DNA of 64,000 nt from Methyloglobulus sp. (GCA_013141505.1 JABFQX010000017.1:1-64000), one strand, 5' to 3'. Positions 1-40,733 are shown, counted from the first letter of the stretch. Translations and numbers: made by a program. The notes: generated from the letters alone by a model not told the origin.

Positions 1-581
1 ATACGCCATGACTTGTAACTCTGCAGAGATATGGACACTTTTTCTTGCTCCATTTCTAGGATTACCGATCCCATTGCTGCCCATCCACATCCTATGGATC
101 AATCTGGTCACAGACGGCCTGCCGGGGCGGCATCATGCAGCGCCCACCCCGTCCACCCCAGGAAAGTATTTTTGCGCAAGGCATGTGGCAGCATATTCTT
201 TGGGTAGGGTTACTGATGGGAGGCATTTCGCTGTTTTCACAAAGCTGGGCTTATCACATAGGTTCCACCCACTGGCAAAGTATGGTGTTCACCGTGCTCT
301 CACTGTCACAAATGGGTCATGTGTTGGCGATCCGATCGGAGCGGGAATCGCTCTTTGGCCAAGGGCTGTTTTCCAACATACCGCTTCTCGGTGCTGTATT
401 GTTGACTTTTGGCCTACAGATGGCCGTACTTTATGTGCCAACATTTCAACCCATTTTTAAGACCGTAGAGTTAAGCCGTGATGAACTGCTGATCTGTTTG
501 GCCCTTTCTTCAGTCGTATTTTTCGCGGTGGAAATAGAGAAGTGGATGCGTCGACGGGGCTGGATTTACCGGAATGGCTAG
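1..581 (+). pseudogene. P-type (Ca2+-type) cation-transporting ATPase, C-terminal part, frameshifted
   Basis: Frame of ORF 8..460 gives TCNSAEIWTLFLAPFLGLPIPLLPIHILWINLVTDGLP, the conserved P-type ATPase M5-M6 region. The rest (MQRPPRPPQESIFAQGMWQHILW...) continues in another frame at 135..581. Confidence 0.8.
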
Positions 582-828
582 CATTGTCTATACAAATCCC
601 AAGCTGAAAGAGTTTCCCCTAGGGGCGATTTAACGCATACATCATCTATAAACATTAAGGGATAACCAACCTGTGCCAAGTGTTGTTAAGGATCAAGGTC
701 ATAAAAAAATTATGGGCATGACTTATTTACATGACCCTAAACAAGGTTAAGCCAATTCAATTTTAACACTGCCTAATTGTTAATGCGTTTATTTCAAAGT
801 GCCCCGTCAGTGCCCCATAGGCAACAAA

Positions 829-857
829 AAAGGGCTCCGGTTTCCAGTAAGCCCTTG
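829..857 (-). terminator. Rho-independent terminator on minus strand, probably the original terminator of tRNA-Lys
   Basis: Minus strand AAGGGCT-TA-CTGG-AAA-CCGG-AGCCCTT followed by TTTT, directly downstream of att copy 1. Confidence 0.7.
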
Positions 858-864
858 AATTTGG

Positions 865-910
865 TGGTGGGTCGCATGCGATTCGAACGCATGACCATCG
901 CATTAAAAGT
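865..910. repeat. att core copy 1 (tRNA-Lys 3' fragment), left end of element 1
   Basis: TGGTGGGTCGCATGCGATTCGAACGCATGACCATCGCATTAAAAGT, identical to 4458-4503 and 40658-40703. Confidence 0.95.
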
Positions 911-1043
911 ATCAATATGATATAAGCAACATAAATAAAATCAATGCCTTGCAACGACTAGCACAGTAATATGAAACAACATAAAGCATTGATAATACTT
1001 TATTTACACAATTTGAAAGCTACGATATAGCTACGGTGGAATC

Positions 1044-1238
1044 ATGAAAGTTGAAATTGACGATAAATTTATAGGGCAATTGCAAAGCTACACAACGCTA
1101 CCTTTAACCAATTCAGATTTTGAATTCTTGGCTCAATGCTTTTTTGATATTGGCTTGCTTACGGTTGATTCTGTACTCGAAAAGCATCCTGAATTGACAT
1201 TCCGCGAGTTGCTCATGATGTATTTTAGAAAACACTAA
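1044..1238 (+). CDS. Hypothetical small protein (64 aa)
   Basis: ORF with an ATG start near the left end of element 1; no family recognised. Confidence 0.5.
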   Translation: MKVEIDDKFIGQLQSYTTLPLTNSDFEFLAQCFFDIGLLTVDSVLEKHPELTFRELLMMYFRKH

Positions 1239-1258
1239 ACAACCTCCCATCTTTCCCG

Positions 1259-1368
1259 CCAGTACTTATCCACAAGTGCATAGCCCCTTGCTGCGGCTGG
1301 GGTAGCGAAGCGGCAACCCCAGAAGCCGCAGGCGTAGCGGGCTGTGTACCCTGTGGGTAAGTGTCTGG
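1259..1368. other. Long imperfect hairpin (about 110 nt)
   Basis: CCAG..CTTA..CCACA..AGCCC..TGCGGCT..GGGG pairs, with bulges, with the right arm ending GGGCTGTGTACCCTGTGGGTAAGTGTCTGG. Confidence 0.65.
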
Positions 1369-1421
1369 CTTTCCGCTGTTTATTATTCTTCCATTTCTTT
1401 ATAGATAACTTTGATGATGTA

Positions 1422-1603
1422 GGCTGTCAGCTTCAAGCTGCCGTTACGCAACTTAGCAAACGTAGATAGCAAGGCAACAAAATAAACAGCTAACCGAATC
1501 CTGCCCTGACTTTAGGAGGGGCAGGATAAGGTTAGGTACTTAGTTTGGAAGGTTAATAGCTACCTAAAGAATAGGCTTAGCGGAGGCTTGAAGCTGACCA
1601 GCC
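1422..1603. other. Large nested stem-loop structure (about 182 nt)
   Basis: Outer arms GGCTGTCAGCTTCAAGC (1422-1438) and GCTTGAAGCTGACCAGCC (1586-1603); inner hairpin CTAACC-GA-ATCCTGCCC...GGGCAGGAT-AA-GGTTAG (1490-1535). Confidence 0.65.
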
Positions 1604-1984
1604 GTAAGCGTCAACACGGTTTCAATACTACTTCCTTGACATTCCTTAAAATGACCTTAAGATATGCGCGTGTTATCGCTTAACTTTTAGAGTAAGTCGA
1701 TTCATATTAACCATTTTATTAACTTTCGATCACGATATAAATTAATCAATAGGAAGGTATCAAGCCCTAGTCAAGGCTTGATAAGCGAAGCAAGGATATG
1801 GATATAGCTTCGTTGGACGCTGCAACCCCTCGCCATAGGATGGCATAATATAAGCAATATACTCATCTATGTTAGGTAGCGTGACTGCTTCTAACCGTGG
1901 TCGGTAAACCCAAAAGGTGCGCCGATATGCTATTTCAAAAATATCAAAAATCGCGCTACCCGCATTCAATGCAGGTGGTCGCGT

Positions 1985-2689
1985 ATGTCGTCTAAATCAT
2001 CCCAATTTATTGTAGACCGTCTTAAATCAAGGCTTTCAAGGCTTAAACGCTCAGTGATAACTGCTGGTCGCTTGCATGAAGAGGAAATTCAATCTCAGCG
2101 TATCAGAATAACTCCATGGATGATAACTCTCACTTACGCCCCCGGCGTTGAATGGTCTCAGTTACATATCACAGAGACAATAAAATCCGTTCGTCAATGG
2201 TGTGAACGCCGTGGCGTTAAATTTCGTTATGTTTGGGTGGCTGAAATCCAAGAAAAGCGAAAATTGAAACACGGTGGCCATTGCCTTCATTACTACATTG
2301 TTGTCTGGCTGCCAGGACATCTAAATCTTCCGAAATTCGACAAGCGCGGCTGGTGGTGCCATGGCATGACCGAAACCGTTAAGGCTCGTTCCCCAGTAGG
2401 CTATCTTGCCAAATACGCTTCAAAAGGCGGTAAAACCAATCAATTCCCCAAGGTCGCAAGAATTAGCGGCTCTGGCGGTCTTACGGCTGAATCTCGTTGG
2501 CAAAAGTCTTGGTGGTCAATGCCTATATATGTTCGTGAACGGTTTGATAATTTTCTACATAGACCAACCCGTTTAAAAGGTGGTGGGTTCTATTCAAGGT
2601 TATCTGGTGAAATTATTGATTCACTTTACGAGGTTGTTAAACTCTCCCCGTTAATTATCACCCCGAAGCAGGTTTTTAAGTATGCATAA
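1985..2689 (+). CDS. Rolling-circle replication initiator, inovirus G2P / REP_ORF2-like
   Basis: MITLTYAPGVEW...YVWVAEIQEKRK..HCLHYYIVVWLP..DKRGWWCHGMT...SPVGYLAKYASKG; matches motif 2 and the YxxxY motif 3 layout of HUH Reps. Confidence 0.75.
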   Translation: MSSKSSQFIVDRLKSRLSRLKRSVITAGRLHEEEIQSQRIRITPWMITLTYAPGVEWSQLHITETIKSVRQWCERRGVKFRYVWVAEIQEKRKLKHGGHCLHYYIVVWLPGHLNLPKFDKRGWWCHGMTETVKARSPVGYLAKYASKGGKTNQFPKVARISGSGGLTAESRWQKSWWSMPIYVRERFDNFLHRPTRLKGGGFYSRLSGEIIDSLYEVVKLSPLIITPKQVFKYA

Positions 2690-2739
2690 CGACTCAATTT
2701 ATGTTTCTGGCTTTGGGCTTGTCTTTAATAAAATAAGCG

Positions 2740-2806
2740 CGCCACTATTTTTCGCGAAAGCTAAAATGGGATCCATCCGATTTTAGCGGCGAAAAATCAC
2801 GTGGCG
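2740..2806. other. Three-tier perfect-arm hairpin, candidate replication origin or packaging signal
   Basis: CGCCAC-T-ATTTTTCGC-GAAA-GCTAAAAT-GGGATCCATCCG-ATTTTAGC-G-GCGAAAAAT-CAC-GTGGCG (6+9+8 bp), 50 nt after rep. Confidence 0.75.
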
Positions 2807-2848
2807 ATTAATGCCTTCGGCTGCCCGCGTTCGTCCTCGGTTCGTCAC

Positions 2849-3031
2849 GATGCACAACTCCCCTTCGGTACGCTGTGCATCACGACTGCCCAAATGACTT
2901 GACGCCGTGTCGGATGGCCTTGCATGTTGACTACGCTTCCGCTCGCGCTCCAACTCCGTCAACACGCCCGACCCCTACGGCTACGCGGGGGTCGTCGTAC
3001 ACCGCTCCACTAACGTTACGCTTCCGTGTAC
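2849..3031. repeat. Array of four stem-loops, each containing TACGC
   Basis: GATGCACA/TGTGCATC (2849-2881), TGTTGAC/GTCAACA (2925-2964), CGACCCC/GGGGTCG (2969-2994), GTACAC/GTGTAC (2997-3031). Confidence 0.65.
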
Positions 3032-3268
3032 TCCTTCCAAGTGATACGCACCCCATGGTAAACAACCAGCCAATACCTAACAACCCATTTCGTAAGCTCT
3101 GTCCTTATTGTGGTTTCTATGTAAAGAACCCAAAGATTTATTTTGAGCTGACAAGCATATCAGGCAAGACAGGCGAGGTATTAAAACTAATAAAGATTTG
3201 CCGCAACTTCTTAGAATCCGATTTAGAACGAATACTAGGTTCAGTTATGCCAAGGGTCGAGGACTAAA

Positions 3269-3574
3269 ATGAAAACACTAATACTCGAAGAAGCCGCAAA
3301 AATCCTACACATGCACAAAGTAGTTTTACGCAACAAATGCCGATCTGGTGAAGTCACCGCTGCTAAGCTAGGCAAACGCTGGTTATTTCTTGAGGTAGAC
3401 CTTACAAACTGGCTACGTTTACAATACTCCCCGCTAGCGTTGCAGGGTGAACAAACAACGGAGGTAAAACAATGTCACTCTACAAACGAAAAGATAGCCC
3501 TTACTGGTGGATTAAACTTGAAATCAACGGAAGACGAATACAGAAAAGCACTGGGACTAACGATGAAAACCTAG
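3269..3574 (+). CDS. Excisionase / AlpA-like DNA-binding protein
   Basis: MKTLILEEAAKILHMHKVVLRNKCRSGEVTAAKLGKRWLFLEVDLTNWLR, MerR/HTH_17-type fold, directly upstream of the integrase. Confidence 0.65.
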   Translation: MKTLILEEAAKILHMHKVVLRNKCRSGEVTAAKLGKRWLFLEVDLTNWLRLQYSPLALQGEQTTEVKQCHSTNEKIALTGGLNLKSTEDEYRKALGLTMKT

Positions 3575-4393
3575 CCAAAGAGTACCAAGCCAAAATTGAG
3601 CAGGACCAATGGCAACAATCAAGGCTTGGCGTTAAACCCGGTTATCTATGGCAAGATGCCGTGTTAAGGTGGCTTAAGGAAACGGAACACAAAGCAACCC
3701 ATAAGGATGATTTATGGATTCTTCGTGGTGTTGATGTTCACTTGCATGGTTTAAAGTTATCTGAAATTGACCGCGATAAACTTGATTCCATTACCGCTTC
3801 AAGATTGTCCGATGGTGTTGGAAACGGCACTGTTAACAGGATGCTTGCCGTTATCCGTGCTATTCTTCGTCGGTCATGCCATGATTGGGAGTGGATAGAA
3901 CGTGCGCCTAAAGTCCGCATGTTGCCAGTGCAAAAAAGGCGTGTGCGATTCTTGACGCAAGATGAAGCGGCTAGGCTTATCGGTGAGCTTCCACCACACT
4001 TATCCGCTATGGCAAGATTCAGCCTAGAAACTGGATTACGTCAATCTAATGTTATGGGCTTGCAATGGTCTCAAATTGATTTGGAACGTCAAAACCCTTG
4101 CGCTTGGGTACATCCAGACCAATCTAAGAATCGTAAGGGTATAGCTGTTCCATTTTCTCATTCGGCGGTTAGTGTTGTTCGGTCTCAGATTGGAAAATGC
4201 CAAACACACGTTTTTAGTTACAGAGGTAATCCAGTTACGGTGGTTAATACCAAAGCATGGAAATCCGCTCTTAAACGCGCTTCAAGAGCTTGGCGGATGG
4301 GAATCCGTAGAAATGGTTAGACGTTATGCCCATCTAACAGGCGATCATTTATCAGTTTATGCAAAGAGCATGACCAATAATTTAGGCGTGTAG
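3472..4393 (+). pseudogene. Tyrosine recombinase/integrase with internal deletion and frameshift
   Basis: N-terminal part in ORF 3472..4320 (TGLRQSNVMGLQWSQID); the C-terminus LQELGGWESVEMVRRYAHLTGDHLSVYAKSM is in another frame; the HDLRHTxAS segment is absent. Confidence 0.85.
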
Positions 4394-4417
4394 CTACGAA
4401 CTGGCTACGGTATTAAA

Positions 4418-4446
4418 AACTTAACATTGGTAGTCAATGCTAAGTT
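4418..4446 (-). terminator. Element 1-borne terminator facing the tRNA-Lys att site
   Basis: Minus strand AACTTA-G-CATTG-ACTAC-CAATG-T-TAAGTT followed by TTTT. Confidence 0.6.
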
Positions 4447-4457
4447 ATTGAATTTGG

Positions 4458-4503
4458 TGGTGGGTCGCATGCGATTCGAACGCATGACCATCGCATTAAA
4501 AGT
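4458..4503. repeat. att core copy 2 (junction of element 1 and element 2)
   Basis: Same 46 bp as copies 1 and 3. Confidence 0.95.
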
Positions 4504-4902
4504 GCAATTAGGCACATATAACTTATTGTTTTGTATTGATTTATATCAAGTTTTTTATGTCGCGTATCACTACCAATCACAACAAATCATAGCTAAGTCG
4601 CGTAAATCTCGCGCACAATTTTCTGGCTCTATGACCTCATTAGCACTTATCTGACCCATAAGAATTCACTTTGGGTGGTGCTTTATGCCTGTGACTTATT
4701 GGTAGGCAAACCTTATAAGGCTGTAAATGGAAGCTAGCAACAGCACATTATTTCTCATCGGAATTACGAAATCAGATTGTAGCAGCTGAGAGTGTCTGCT
4801 TGATATGAGAAGCACAAATAACGGCTTGTGATTGAAACTTTCTGACCTCGATATATCGATTTTTACACGCACACCTCATCCAATTAAAATCGGAGATACA
4901 CC

Positions 4903-5550
4903 ATGACACCAAAACAACGAGACCTCATAGCTGACCTGCATATGAAGATATGTAGGATGGACATTTACTACCACTTGCTGCAAAGAAAAATGAATGAATT
5001 ATCGGAATCAATTGATAACACAGTCATTATGGACAAACATGAATTTACTGTTGATGAAATCAATAGACTAATCAGTTTTAACCAAAGACTAACCGAGCTA
5101 GAACTGTACCTATATGATTTGGGGTATAAAGAAAGCACACAACTGGCTGCCCGTGTTTCCGATCCTGACGACCCGCTGGACGATTACGAAATAGAGACAA
5201 CACTCTACTTTATATTAGGTGAAGACGATCCTGATTTTGATGAAGACGAGGACAATTTCTTAACCCAGCGACATATTAGTCTCAAACGCATTGATAGGGA
5301 ATATGGACTCGGGGATGAGGTTGACCATCGTGAACCATATCGTAACTTTCCTGAAGGTCTTAAGGAGGTGCGGAATTGCTGGTTGTTTTATGACCTTTAC
5401 ACAAATAGCCGTGGCTTGGAACAACCCTCTATAACATTGCGCGACTGTTTACGAGTTGATTCGATCTGGGCGGATGTTGCCGTCCACCACCAAGCAACCT
5501 TGGATATTAAAACGGGTAAGTGGATACAGCCTACCGGAGTACAAAAATAG
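4903..5550 (+). CDS. Hypothetical protein
   Basis: 215-aa ORF preceded by a GGAG-type site. Confidence 0.6.
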   Translation: MTPKQRDLIADLHMKICRMDIYYHLLQRKMNELSESIDNTVIMDKHEFTVDEINRLISFNQRLTELELYLYDLGYKESTQLAARVSDPDDPLDDYEIETTLYFILGEDDPDFDEDEDNFLTQRHISLKRIDREYGLGDEVDHREPYRNFPEGLKEVRNCWLFYDLYTNSRGLEQPSITLRDCLRVDSIWADVAVHHQATLDIKTGKWIQPTGVQK

Positions 5551-31800: not shown

Positions 31801-32760
31801 TTAAGCCACCTGAGCTAGAAATTGTTGCTCATACTCCCTGTGGACTAGGCTCCTCAACCCTTCTTTGTGGGCGGCATCGAAATCCATATCCCTTTTCTTA
31901 AAAGAAAGGGGCTTTATCCGATAGTTCTCAAGCAGCTTTAGGTAACGGCGTCGTTCTTGATCTACTAGGATATACAAAGCAGAGTTAAGCCCGTTTTCAT
32001 ATGCATCATCCCTAAATTCCTTAGAAAATCCTTCATCTTCAAGGAAACTGTCTTTATAAAAGTTAATTGCCTTAAATTCCTTTAGCAAATGCCGATCTAG
32101 TTCAGCCATAGTACAGTCCAAGTTCCTTAACCTGATTTCTATACGATGATGGCTGATGTTTTCAAAAGAAGGATAGAAATCAAAGTCCAGAGCAATACTG
32201 TCTTCAATGCCTTGTTCAGCACGTTTATCGTACATGGTGATCCTTCGATTACTCATCTCACTGCCTATGACCTGGCTAATGATTTTGTAACCAAATTTAT
32301 CCCTATAGATTTCAGATTGCTCAATCCTACTTCTATGGATGTACAAGCCTGGTTCCATATCAAAGACATCAAGGGTAAGGTCTAGCCTAGTAAGACGGGC
32401 ATGGAAGTAAATCTTTTTCATCACGTCTTTAGTTAGGAGCTTTATTAAGAACAGTCTAAATTTCTTTCTACCTCTAACTCCTAGATTACGTGGATTGTAT
32501 TCTACTCGTAAGAAGTTATGGCTTGTGTTGATTGGATAGACTGATAGCTTAATAGTATTCCATTGGAATATCTCAAATTGGTAGTTATTCTGGTATCTAC
32601 CATTATTATGTCCATATACCCGTCTATTATATTTCTCATAAAAATTTGGATCATTTAATCTATCGATTAAAAGTAATCTCTTACTCTTTCTAATTGGAAA
32701 TGTAAAAGCTATCTTGTCGTAAAATAGAACTTGTATTGGATCAATGAAGTTATGTTTCAT
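31801..32760 (-). CDS. Replication initiator, Rep_trans-like
   Basis: TRLDLTLDVFDMEPG...RITMYDKRAEQ...HRIEIRLRN pattern. Confidence 0.6.
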   Translation of the reverse strand: MKHNFIDPIQVLFYDKIAFTFPIRKSKRLLLIDRLNDPNFYEKYNRRVYGHNNGRYQNNYQFEIFQWNTIKLSVYPINTSHNFLRVEYNPRNLGVRGRKKFRLFLIKLLTKDVMKKIYFHARLTRLDLTLDVFDMEPGLYIHRSRIEQSEIYRDKFGYKIISQVIGSEMSNRRITMYDKRAEQGIEDSIALDFDFYPSFENISHHRIEIRLRNLDCTMAELDRHLLKEFKAINFYKDSFLEDEGFSKEFRDDAYENGLNSALYILVDQERRRYLKLLENYRIKPLSFKKRDMDFDAAHKEGLRSLVHREYEQQFLAQVA

Positions 32761-40639: not shown

Positions 40640-40657
40640 GATTTATATGATAAGTTG

Positions 40658-40733
40658 TGGTGGGTCGCATGCGATTCGAACGCATGACCATCGCATTAAA
40701 AGTGCGGTGCTCTACCGGCTGAGCTAGCGACCC
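40658..40733 (-). tRNA. tRNA-Lys (anticodon TTT)
   Basis: GGGTCGCTAGCTCAGCCGGTAGAGCACCGCACTTTTAATGCGATGGTCATGCGTTCGAATCGCATGCGACCCACCA, 76 nt. Confidence 0.97.

Follow-up and report, generated by a model that had tools for sequence, protein, structure and literature searches.

The systems closest to the element described here are filamentous phages (inoviruses), small rolling-circle plasmids and integrated elements built around a replication initiator protein (Rep). The Xanthomonas phage XacF1 integrates by means of the XerCD recombinases of its host (PMC4076744), RS1 is a satellite of the CTX phage (mentioned in PMC11389934), and the exchange of replication modules among inoviruses, including that of HUH for Rep_trans initiators, is known from phylogenetic trees (PMC6668415). 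Surveys of filamentous phages search by the Zot/pI gene (PMC6813254), and elements without Zot are therefore invisible to them. Here, we analyse one such element in a 64,000-nucleotide stretch of Methyloglobulus sp. DNA (GCA_013141505.1 JABFQX010000017.1:1-64000), referred to below as the window, with positions counted from its first letter.

The element is likely to be a decayed, small integrative rolling-circle element whose family derives from, or shares modules with, integrative filamentous phages and has no virion module. This assessment covers the identity and decay of the element and not its route of transfer. Borders, family, initiator swap, origin motif and three defects were read from the sequence; excision, replication, the role of a leader hairpin and a helper are our interpretation.

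Borders and gene content

The features of the element and its target are as follows.

863-910, + strand: outer direct repeat, attachment (att) site, copy of the 3' part of the transfer RNA (tRNA) gene tRNA-Lys(TTT); exact match to 4456-4503
1044-1238, + strand: open reading frame (ORF) of 64 amino acids (aa), function unassigned; 39% identical to a 68-aa ORF at the same position in a relative in tRNA-Asn
1258-1370, + strand: 113-nt long hairpin, candidate single-strand origin; z-score -5.9 as single-stranded DNA (ssDNA; DNA parameters)
1332-2008, + strand: leader in common with a relic on contig 33, 94-98% identical, ending at the first codons of rep
1985-2689, + strand: Rep, 234 aa, PF23343 REP_ORF2-G2P, Cf1-type (PF23343, 4e-25; phrog_2969, 1e-37)
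2682-3267, + strand: small zinc-finger gene by sequence reading, split by a 304-bp repeat; counterparts of 47-50 aa in relatives L074 and L039
2715-2733, + strand: probable double-strand origin, left part, GGGCTTGTC-TTTAATAAA-A, by motif comparison
2734-3037, + strand: 304-bp dispersed repeat inside the origin; about 20 genome copies, without target duplication
3038-3048, + strand: probable double-strand origin, right part, CAAGTGATACG, by motif comparison
3269-3574, + strand: excisionase-like (Xis-like) protein, 101 aa (HTH_17, 4e-9; phrog_2907, 2e-7; excisionase PHROGs)
3472-4320, + strand: tyrosine integrase (Int) gene, broken (PF00589); frame ends after about 263 family residues
4172-4393, + strand: rest of the integrase C-terminus, shifted to another frame, LQELGGWESVEMVRRYAHL, by sequence comparison
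4456-4503, + strand: inner direct repeat, att site, border in common with the adjoining 36-kb island, by repeat comparison
40658-40733, - strand: intact tRNA-Lys(TTT), integration target (ARAGORN; intact in four congeners)

The element is a complete integrated unit, spanning 863-4503 between 48-bp direct repeats. The repeats are identical (chance expectation 0), and a third copy at 40656-40703, with one mismatch, forms the 3' end of tRNA-Lys(TTT), the only tRNA called by ARAGORN, so that the direct repeats restore the 3' end of the tRNA as in tRNA-recombinase elements. From the position of the three copies, it follows that two elements stand in tandem in the tRNA-Lys gene, namely a 36-kb island (4458-40658) with its own integrase adjoining the tRNA and the 3.6-kb element at the island's far end. 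A search of congeners for a tRNA-Lys site that is unoccupied and followed by the same gene gave none.

The first-pass annotation had described a very small integrated rolling-circle element made up of a 64-aa ORF, a G2P-like Rep, a Xis-like protein, an integrase and more than 1 kb of structured DNA, with no virion or transfer genes. All of these parts are present, and the gene content bears out the absence of virion and transfer genes; the integrase gene, however, is broken, and the zinc-finger ORF, a fifth gene, had been overlooked. The structured DNA is also there, but it consists of two unrelated things, the leader at about 1255-1985 and the 304-bp repeat. The 64-aa ORF has no match in Pfam, PHROG or NCBIfam. 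Of the zinc-finger gene, the part at 3055-3267 remains open (70 aa, with CPYC); its original start lies at 2682, and rep overlaps its 5' end, where the origin is also located. The Xis protein is 95% identical to the 44 aa that remain in the contig-33 relic. No classical relaxase is encoded by the element. Neither an Rfam search of window positions 1-5000 nor a comparison of the element's DNA with phages and plasmids gave a match.

Initiator swap, probable origin and decay

The relic (L010) lies at 9800-12156 of contig 33 of the same host genome (G000). It is 94-98% identical to the window in the leader and about 95% identical at the start of xis-int. The match ends within the first rep codons (ATGTCGTCTAAA..), beyond which the relic encodes a Rep_trans protein (PF02486, 8e-20; phrog_453, 3e-57). 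Since one common leader is followed by a Rep_trans initiator in the relic and by a G2P-type initiator in the window, Rep has been swapped, and the window element is, judging from this junction, a Rep_trans-type element in which a G2P-type initiator has been substituted. We infer that the swap ran from Rep_trans to G2P, as Rep_trans is the common state. The position of the right-hand join is obscured by deletions of the relic's own and by an IS21-type insertion: its Rep_trans gene is fused into xis by deletion, and its integrase is cut off by the insertion, which carries the 304-bp repeat.

The substituted Rep matches the G2P profile that the first-pass annotation had proposed as a check, and it is a rolling-circle Rep of the inovirus type. 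Its nearest named relatives come from the Xanthomonas filamentous phages Cf1/XacF1 (36-37% identity) and from cryptic plasmids of 1.45-1.6 kb in Halomonas, Acinetobacter and Sulfuricurvum (32-39%). In the Rep tree, plasmids are intermingled with phages, and the row closest to the window Rep belongs to an inovirus that has Zot (L149, 44%). The catalytic tyrosine motif YxxKY is kept, with Y140, K143 and Y144 invariant, but the HUH motif reads HYY in place of the HYH found in 99% of 86 relatives. The structure model has a predicted local distance difference test (pLDDT) score of 78.7, and a fold search with it against PDB gave insignificant matches only, the Rep domains of circovirus and adeno-associated virus (AAV) among them.

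The three plasmids pHA020_2, pAT205-2 and that of Sulfuricurvum share GGGCTTGTC-N9-ACAAGT inside the start of rep, and XacF1 has the motif at 343. A scan of 2.9 million viral contigs for the motif plus a following GAYAC returned 104 stretches, and all but one of the 80 examined encode a Rep of the family according to the search model (one of these calls, in L157, is weak and lies at a distance from the motif); the usual position of the motif is 48-66 nt before the conserved Rep domain. As a guard against circularity, a second set of Reps was collected by protein search alone, blind to the motif, and overlaps in part with the first. The motif, allowing at most 3 mismatches in 15, was near rep in 77/80 of these and in 1/80 shuffled sequences. 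The third codon positions of its core are invariant in 47 distinct sequences, and in inovirus L185 it lies in non-coding DNA, which therefore indicates a function at the DNA level. We conclude that GGGCTTGTC-N9-ACAAGT is probably the double-strand origin of the Cf1-type Rep family. In the window, the motif is likewise near rep, though split by the insert, and it lies 26 nt after rep, and not before it, within the 5' end of the zinc-finger gene. In the rep of the Rep_trans relatives, the corresponding position is occupied by another hairpin, CCC..CG..GTAATACG..GGG. An f1-like TCTTTAATA adjoining rep was considered as the nick site and dropped, as the hairpin common to the plasmids and XacF1 fits the position better. 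No earlier description of the origin motif was found in the open-access literature searched, which did not cover the older Xanthomonas phage papers.

The leader folds far better than its shuffles (z-score -7.6), and its long hairpin has TTATCCACA, which resembles a DnaA box, in the stem and ends in a tip with GGGGTAGCGAAGCGGCAACCCCAGA. L039, the relative in tRNA-Asn, has a similarly built hairpin (z-score -7.7), in which the 25-nt tip is 92% identical and the stems are different; an exact search for the tip gave no further copies in viral or genome contigs. Primosomes are known to load on hairpins with DnaA boxes. Our best guess, by analogy with the single-strand origin of ICEBs1 (PMC4595007), is that the leader hairpin serves as a complementary-strand (single-strand) origin, with a packaging signal as the alternative.

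The window copy carries three independent defects as read here: an integrase without its HxxR box, a split origin and HYY in Rep. Compared with seven intact relatives, the closest of them 62% identical, the match of the window integrase ends after VNTKAW/KSALKRA. The relatives continue with about 26 residues, including HDLRHTWASWHV, which are missing here. The deletion is placed near 4277-4282, with a join at GCGCT and the remainder LQELGGWESVEMVRRYAHL out of frame, and with this segment the HxxR box of tyrosine recombinases has been lost; R, HxxR and Y stand in one frame in the relatives but not in the window. The 304-bp insertion divides the origin hairpin exactly and splits the zinc-finger gene as well. 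Because the integrase is broken, a repeat sits in the origin and Rep reads HYY, the window copy is probably dead.

The repeat itself occurs in about 20 copies in the host genome at 97-100% identity, also on contigs 6, 13, 18, 29, 33, 36, 49, 63, 69, 73, 74, 80, 83, 85, 88, 93 and 96 of G000. It is highly structured and is always followed by NNNG, a conserved G four bases 3' of the insert, and contig 48 has a 75-bp palindromic version of its left end. We considered a miniature inverted-repeat transposable element (MITE) and rejected it, since the ends are not inverted and there is no target duplication. No autonomous partner of the repeat was seen.

Around the element, the 36-kb island encodes methyltransferase and helicase-type restriction genes, two DUF262/GmrSD-like proteins (NsnA/Orf5-like by PADLOC) and a weakly Rep_trans-like protein (31801-32757). 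Just outside the outer repeat, positions 780-862 resemble the end of another element's integrase region, with GTGCCCC repeats and a terminator-like hairpin, and are possibly the remnant of a third, older insertion.

Relatives, spread and competing explanations

The first-pass annotation had proposed a search for the rep, xis and int trio, and relatives of the same layout exist, but their Reps are Rep_trans proteins and not of the G2P type. Searches with the 64-aa ORF and Int led to genome G157, where L039 is a 3814-bp element in tRNA-Asn between 89-bp repeats (96% identical). It has a 68-aa relative of the small ORF, a leader of about 920 bp and Xis; its Rep is 358 aa long, its zinc-finger ORF 50 aa and its Int, which is intact, 353 aa. 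In the congener G001, L074 is a 3218-bp element in tRNA-Met that encodes nothing beyond Rep, Xis, Int and a zinc-finger ORF of 47 aa. The window element shares with both the order small ORF or none, leader, Rep, zinc-finger ORF, Xis and Int, and more Rep-Xis-Int clusters occur in G099, G102 and G050. The Reps in all of these loci belong to the Rep_trans type, with a PF02486 match in each of the three that were tested, and inovirus RstA proteins are the closest to them. In four larger relatives (L070, L072, L076 and L077), a 280-307-aa ORF of unassigned family precedes Rep, and in L077 a protein without a Pfam match stands in the place of Rep.

No Zot was found in the loci of the tiny elements. 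In the same bacterial family, Zot stands beside Rep_trans in 6/10 more distant loci, L313 combines Rep_trans, Zot and Int, and L426 is a full integrative inovirus with Rep, ssDNA-binding protein, coat, Zot and a related Xis-Int. The existence of this full-length relative makes an inovirus origin of the element plausible. Complete virion-less relatives at other tRNA genes carry diverged but intact genes, and the small virion-less form is, on this evidence, a persisting kind and not a one-off deletion.

In a working member, Int and Xis would release the element from the 3' end of a tRNA gene as a 3.2-3.8 kb circle, and Rep would nick the double-strand origin hairpin to start rolling-circle replication. 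The displaced single strand would be made duplex from the long leader hairpin, and the circle or its single strand would re-enter a tRNA gene of the same or another cell. Transfer between cells would most likely depend on a helper, with a filamentous phage as the leading candidate; packaging by a helper, as for RS1, is favoured because of the kinship with inoviruses. In the window lineage, the ancestral Rep_trans gene was replaced by a Cf1-type G2P Rep bringing its own origin, after which the HxxR segment of the integrase, the integrity of the origin and one HUH histidine of Rep were lost. A more specific form of this reading, held only tentatively, is that these are persisting 3.2-3.8 kb tRNA-integrating filamentous-phage satellites with a constant leader and Xis-Int, in which the whole initiator-plus-origin cassette is exchanged between the unrelated Rep superfamilies Rep_trans and HUH. 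By gene content alone, with no virion genes and a helper-type Rep, the element would pass for a satellite.

Several points weigh against these proposals. The swapped form with a G2P Rep is known from a single copy: a protein search of 237 genomes of the bacterial family did not find a Rep of the window type elsewhere, nor was it found in 369 sampled genomes of the class, and PF23343 matches within the family are mostly remote. The call of HYY for HYH presumes a correct alignment around a 7-residue insertion, and the single-strand-origin role of the leader hairpin is based on two sequences. In the Rep_trans tree, at weak to modest support, viral sequences separate the tiny elements into two positions, so that these may not be one lineage and may have shed their virion genes more than once. 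The helper dependence proposed in the first-pass annotation stays hypothetical: the Zot/pI gene of Inoviridae is absent from the element, the tiny relatives and the whole host genome; among six genomes examined, Zot is present in G102 and G050, both with tiny relatives, and absent from the host's own genome, G157, G099 and G001.

The first-pass annotation had named an internally deleted inovirus prophage as the case that would overturn its view. L426 and L313 lend something to the idea of a one-off deletion in a filamentous prophage, but we judge it very improbable: tRNA-Asn and tRNA-Met each harbour an independent, complete element that lacks virion genes, whose Rep is intact but diverged (40-48% identity) and whose integrase is intact, and the window element and L039 have a small ORF and leader hairpin in common. 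The annotation's description of a defective relative of filamentous-phage-like elements fits a G2P/Cf1-family Rep without virion genes, and the defects go beyond those that it saw. An integrative and mobilizable element (IME), in which Rep doubles as relaxase and a conjugative system moves the circle with no phage helper, is unlikely in our view. Rep_trans proteins do serve as relaxases in streptococcal IMEs and integrative and conjugative elements (ICEs) (PMC7563843, PMC6499999), and conjugation is a possible route since a related Xis-Int of the same bacterial family serves a Mob_Pre element (L075, contig 32 of G044), where it flanks a Mob_Pre relaxase-Toprim protein (PF01076, 1e-35). However, the Reps here are closest to inovirus RstA, Cf1-type phage Reps and those of non-mobilizable 1.5-kb plasmids, and all the tiny elements lack a coupling protein or accessory mobilization gene.

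There is likewise a small chance that the element is a cryptic rolling-circle plasmid integrated into the chromosome, which would spread by transformation or vesicles and need no specific helper. It shares Rep and origin with 1.45-1.6-kb plasmids that encode little else (pHA020_2 and pAT205-2), and integrated Rep elements without structural genes are known in other HUH families (PMC6668415); against this, plasmids and phages are mixed in the Rep tree, and the nearest row is the Zot-bearing L149. A decayed element of filamentous-phage kinship thus remains our preferred reading.

Comparison with known systems

The Xanthomonas phages Cf1c and XacF1 (Coriovirus) have the same Rep family and origin motif, which lies inside rep in XacF1, but they also encode coat, Zot and other virion proteins, whereas the window element has its own tRNA-type integrase. 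The plasmids pHA020_2 (Halomonas), pAT205-2 (Acinetobacter) and the 1452-bp plasmid of Sulfuricurvum resemble it in Rep family, origin hairpin and the lack of particle or transfer genes, and pHA020_2 also has a small Cys-pair ORF after rep; unlike the window element, they are free circles without Xis-Int. Like the Rep_trans relatives, RS1 has an RstA-type Rep and no virion genes. RS1 uses XerCD and dif, carries rstB and rstC and has a known helper, whereas the tiny elements have their own Xis-Int, tRNA sites and no known helper. L426 resembles them in having Rep_trans at one end and Xis-Int of the same integrase family at the other, but between the two it has about 5 kb with genes for an ssDNA-binding protein, coat and Zot. 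The integrated HUH-Rep elements of Kazlauskas et al. 2019 (PMC6668415) also combine site-specific integration with an absence of structural proteins, but they have CRESS-type Reps with helicase domains and other Rep families. Streptococcal IMEs with Rep_trans relaxases (PMC7563843) are similarly small and integrated, with a Rep_trans-type initiator and an integrase, but they target the origin of transfer (oriT) of ICEs, their mobilization is proven and their hosts are different.

Against this background, the virion-less tRNA-integrating family, the Rep swap at the sequence level and the origin motif appear to be new. The probable origin motif provides a DNA handle for Cf1-type rolling-circle replicons that is independent of protein models, and with it nicking, replication and helper packaging become open to direct tests. 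In the contig-33 pair, an initiator swapped on a 94-98% identical leader offers a close-up of the module exchange that had been inferred for inoviruses from trees.

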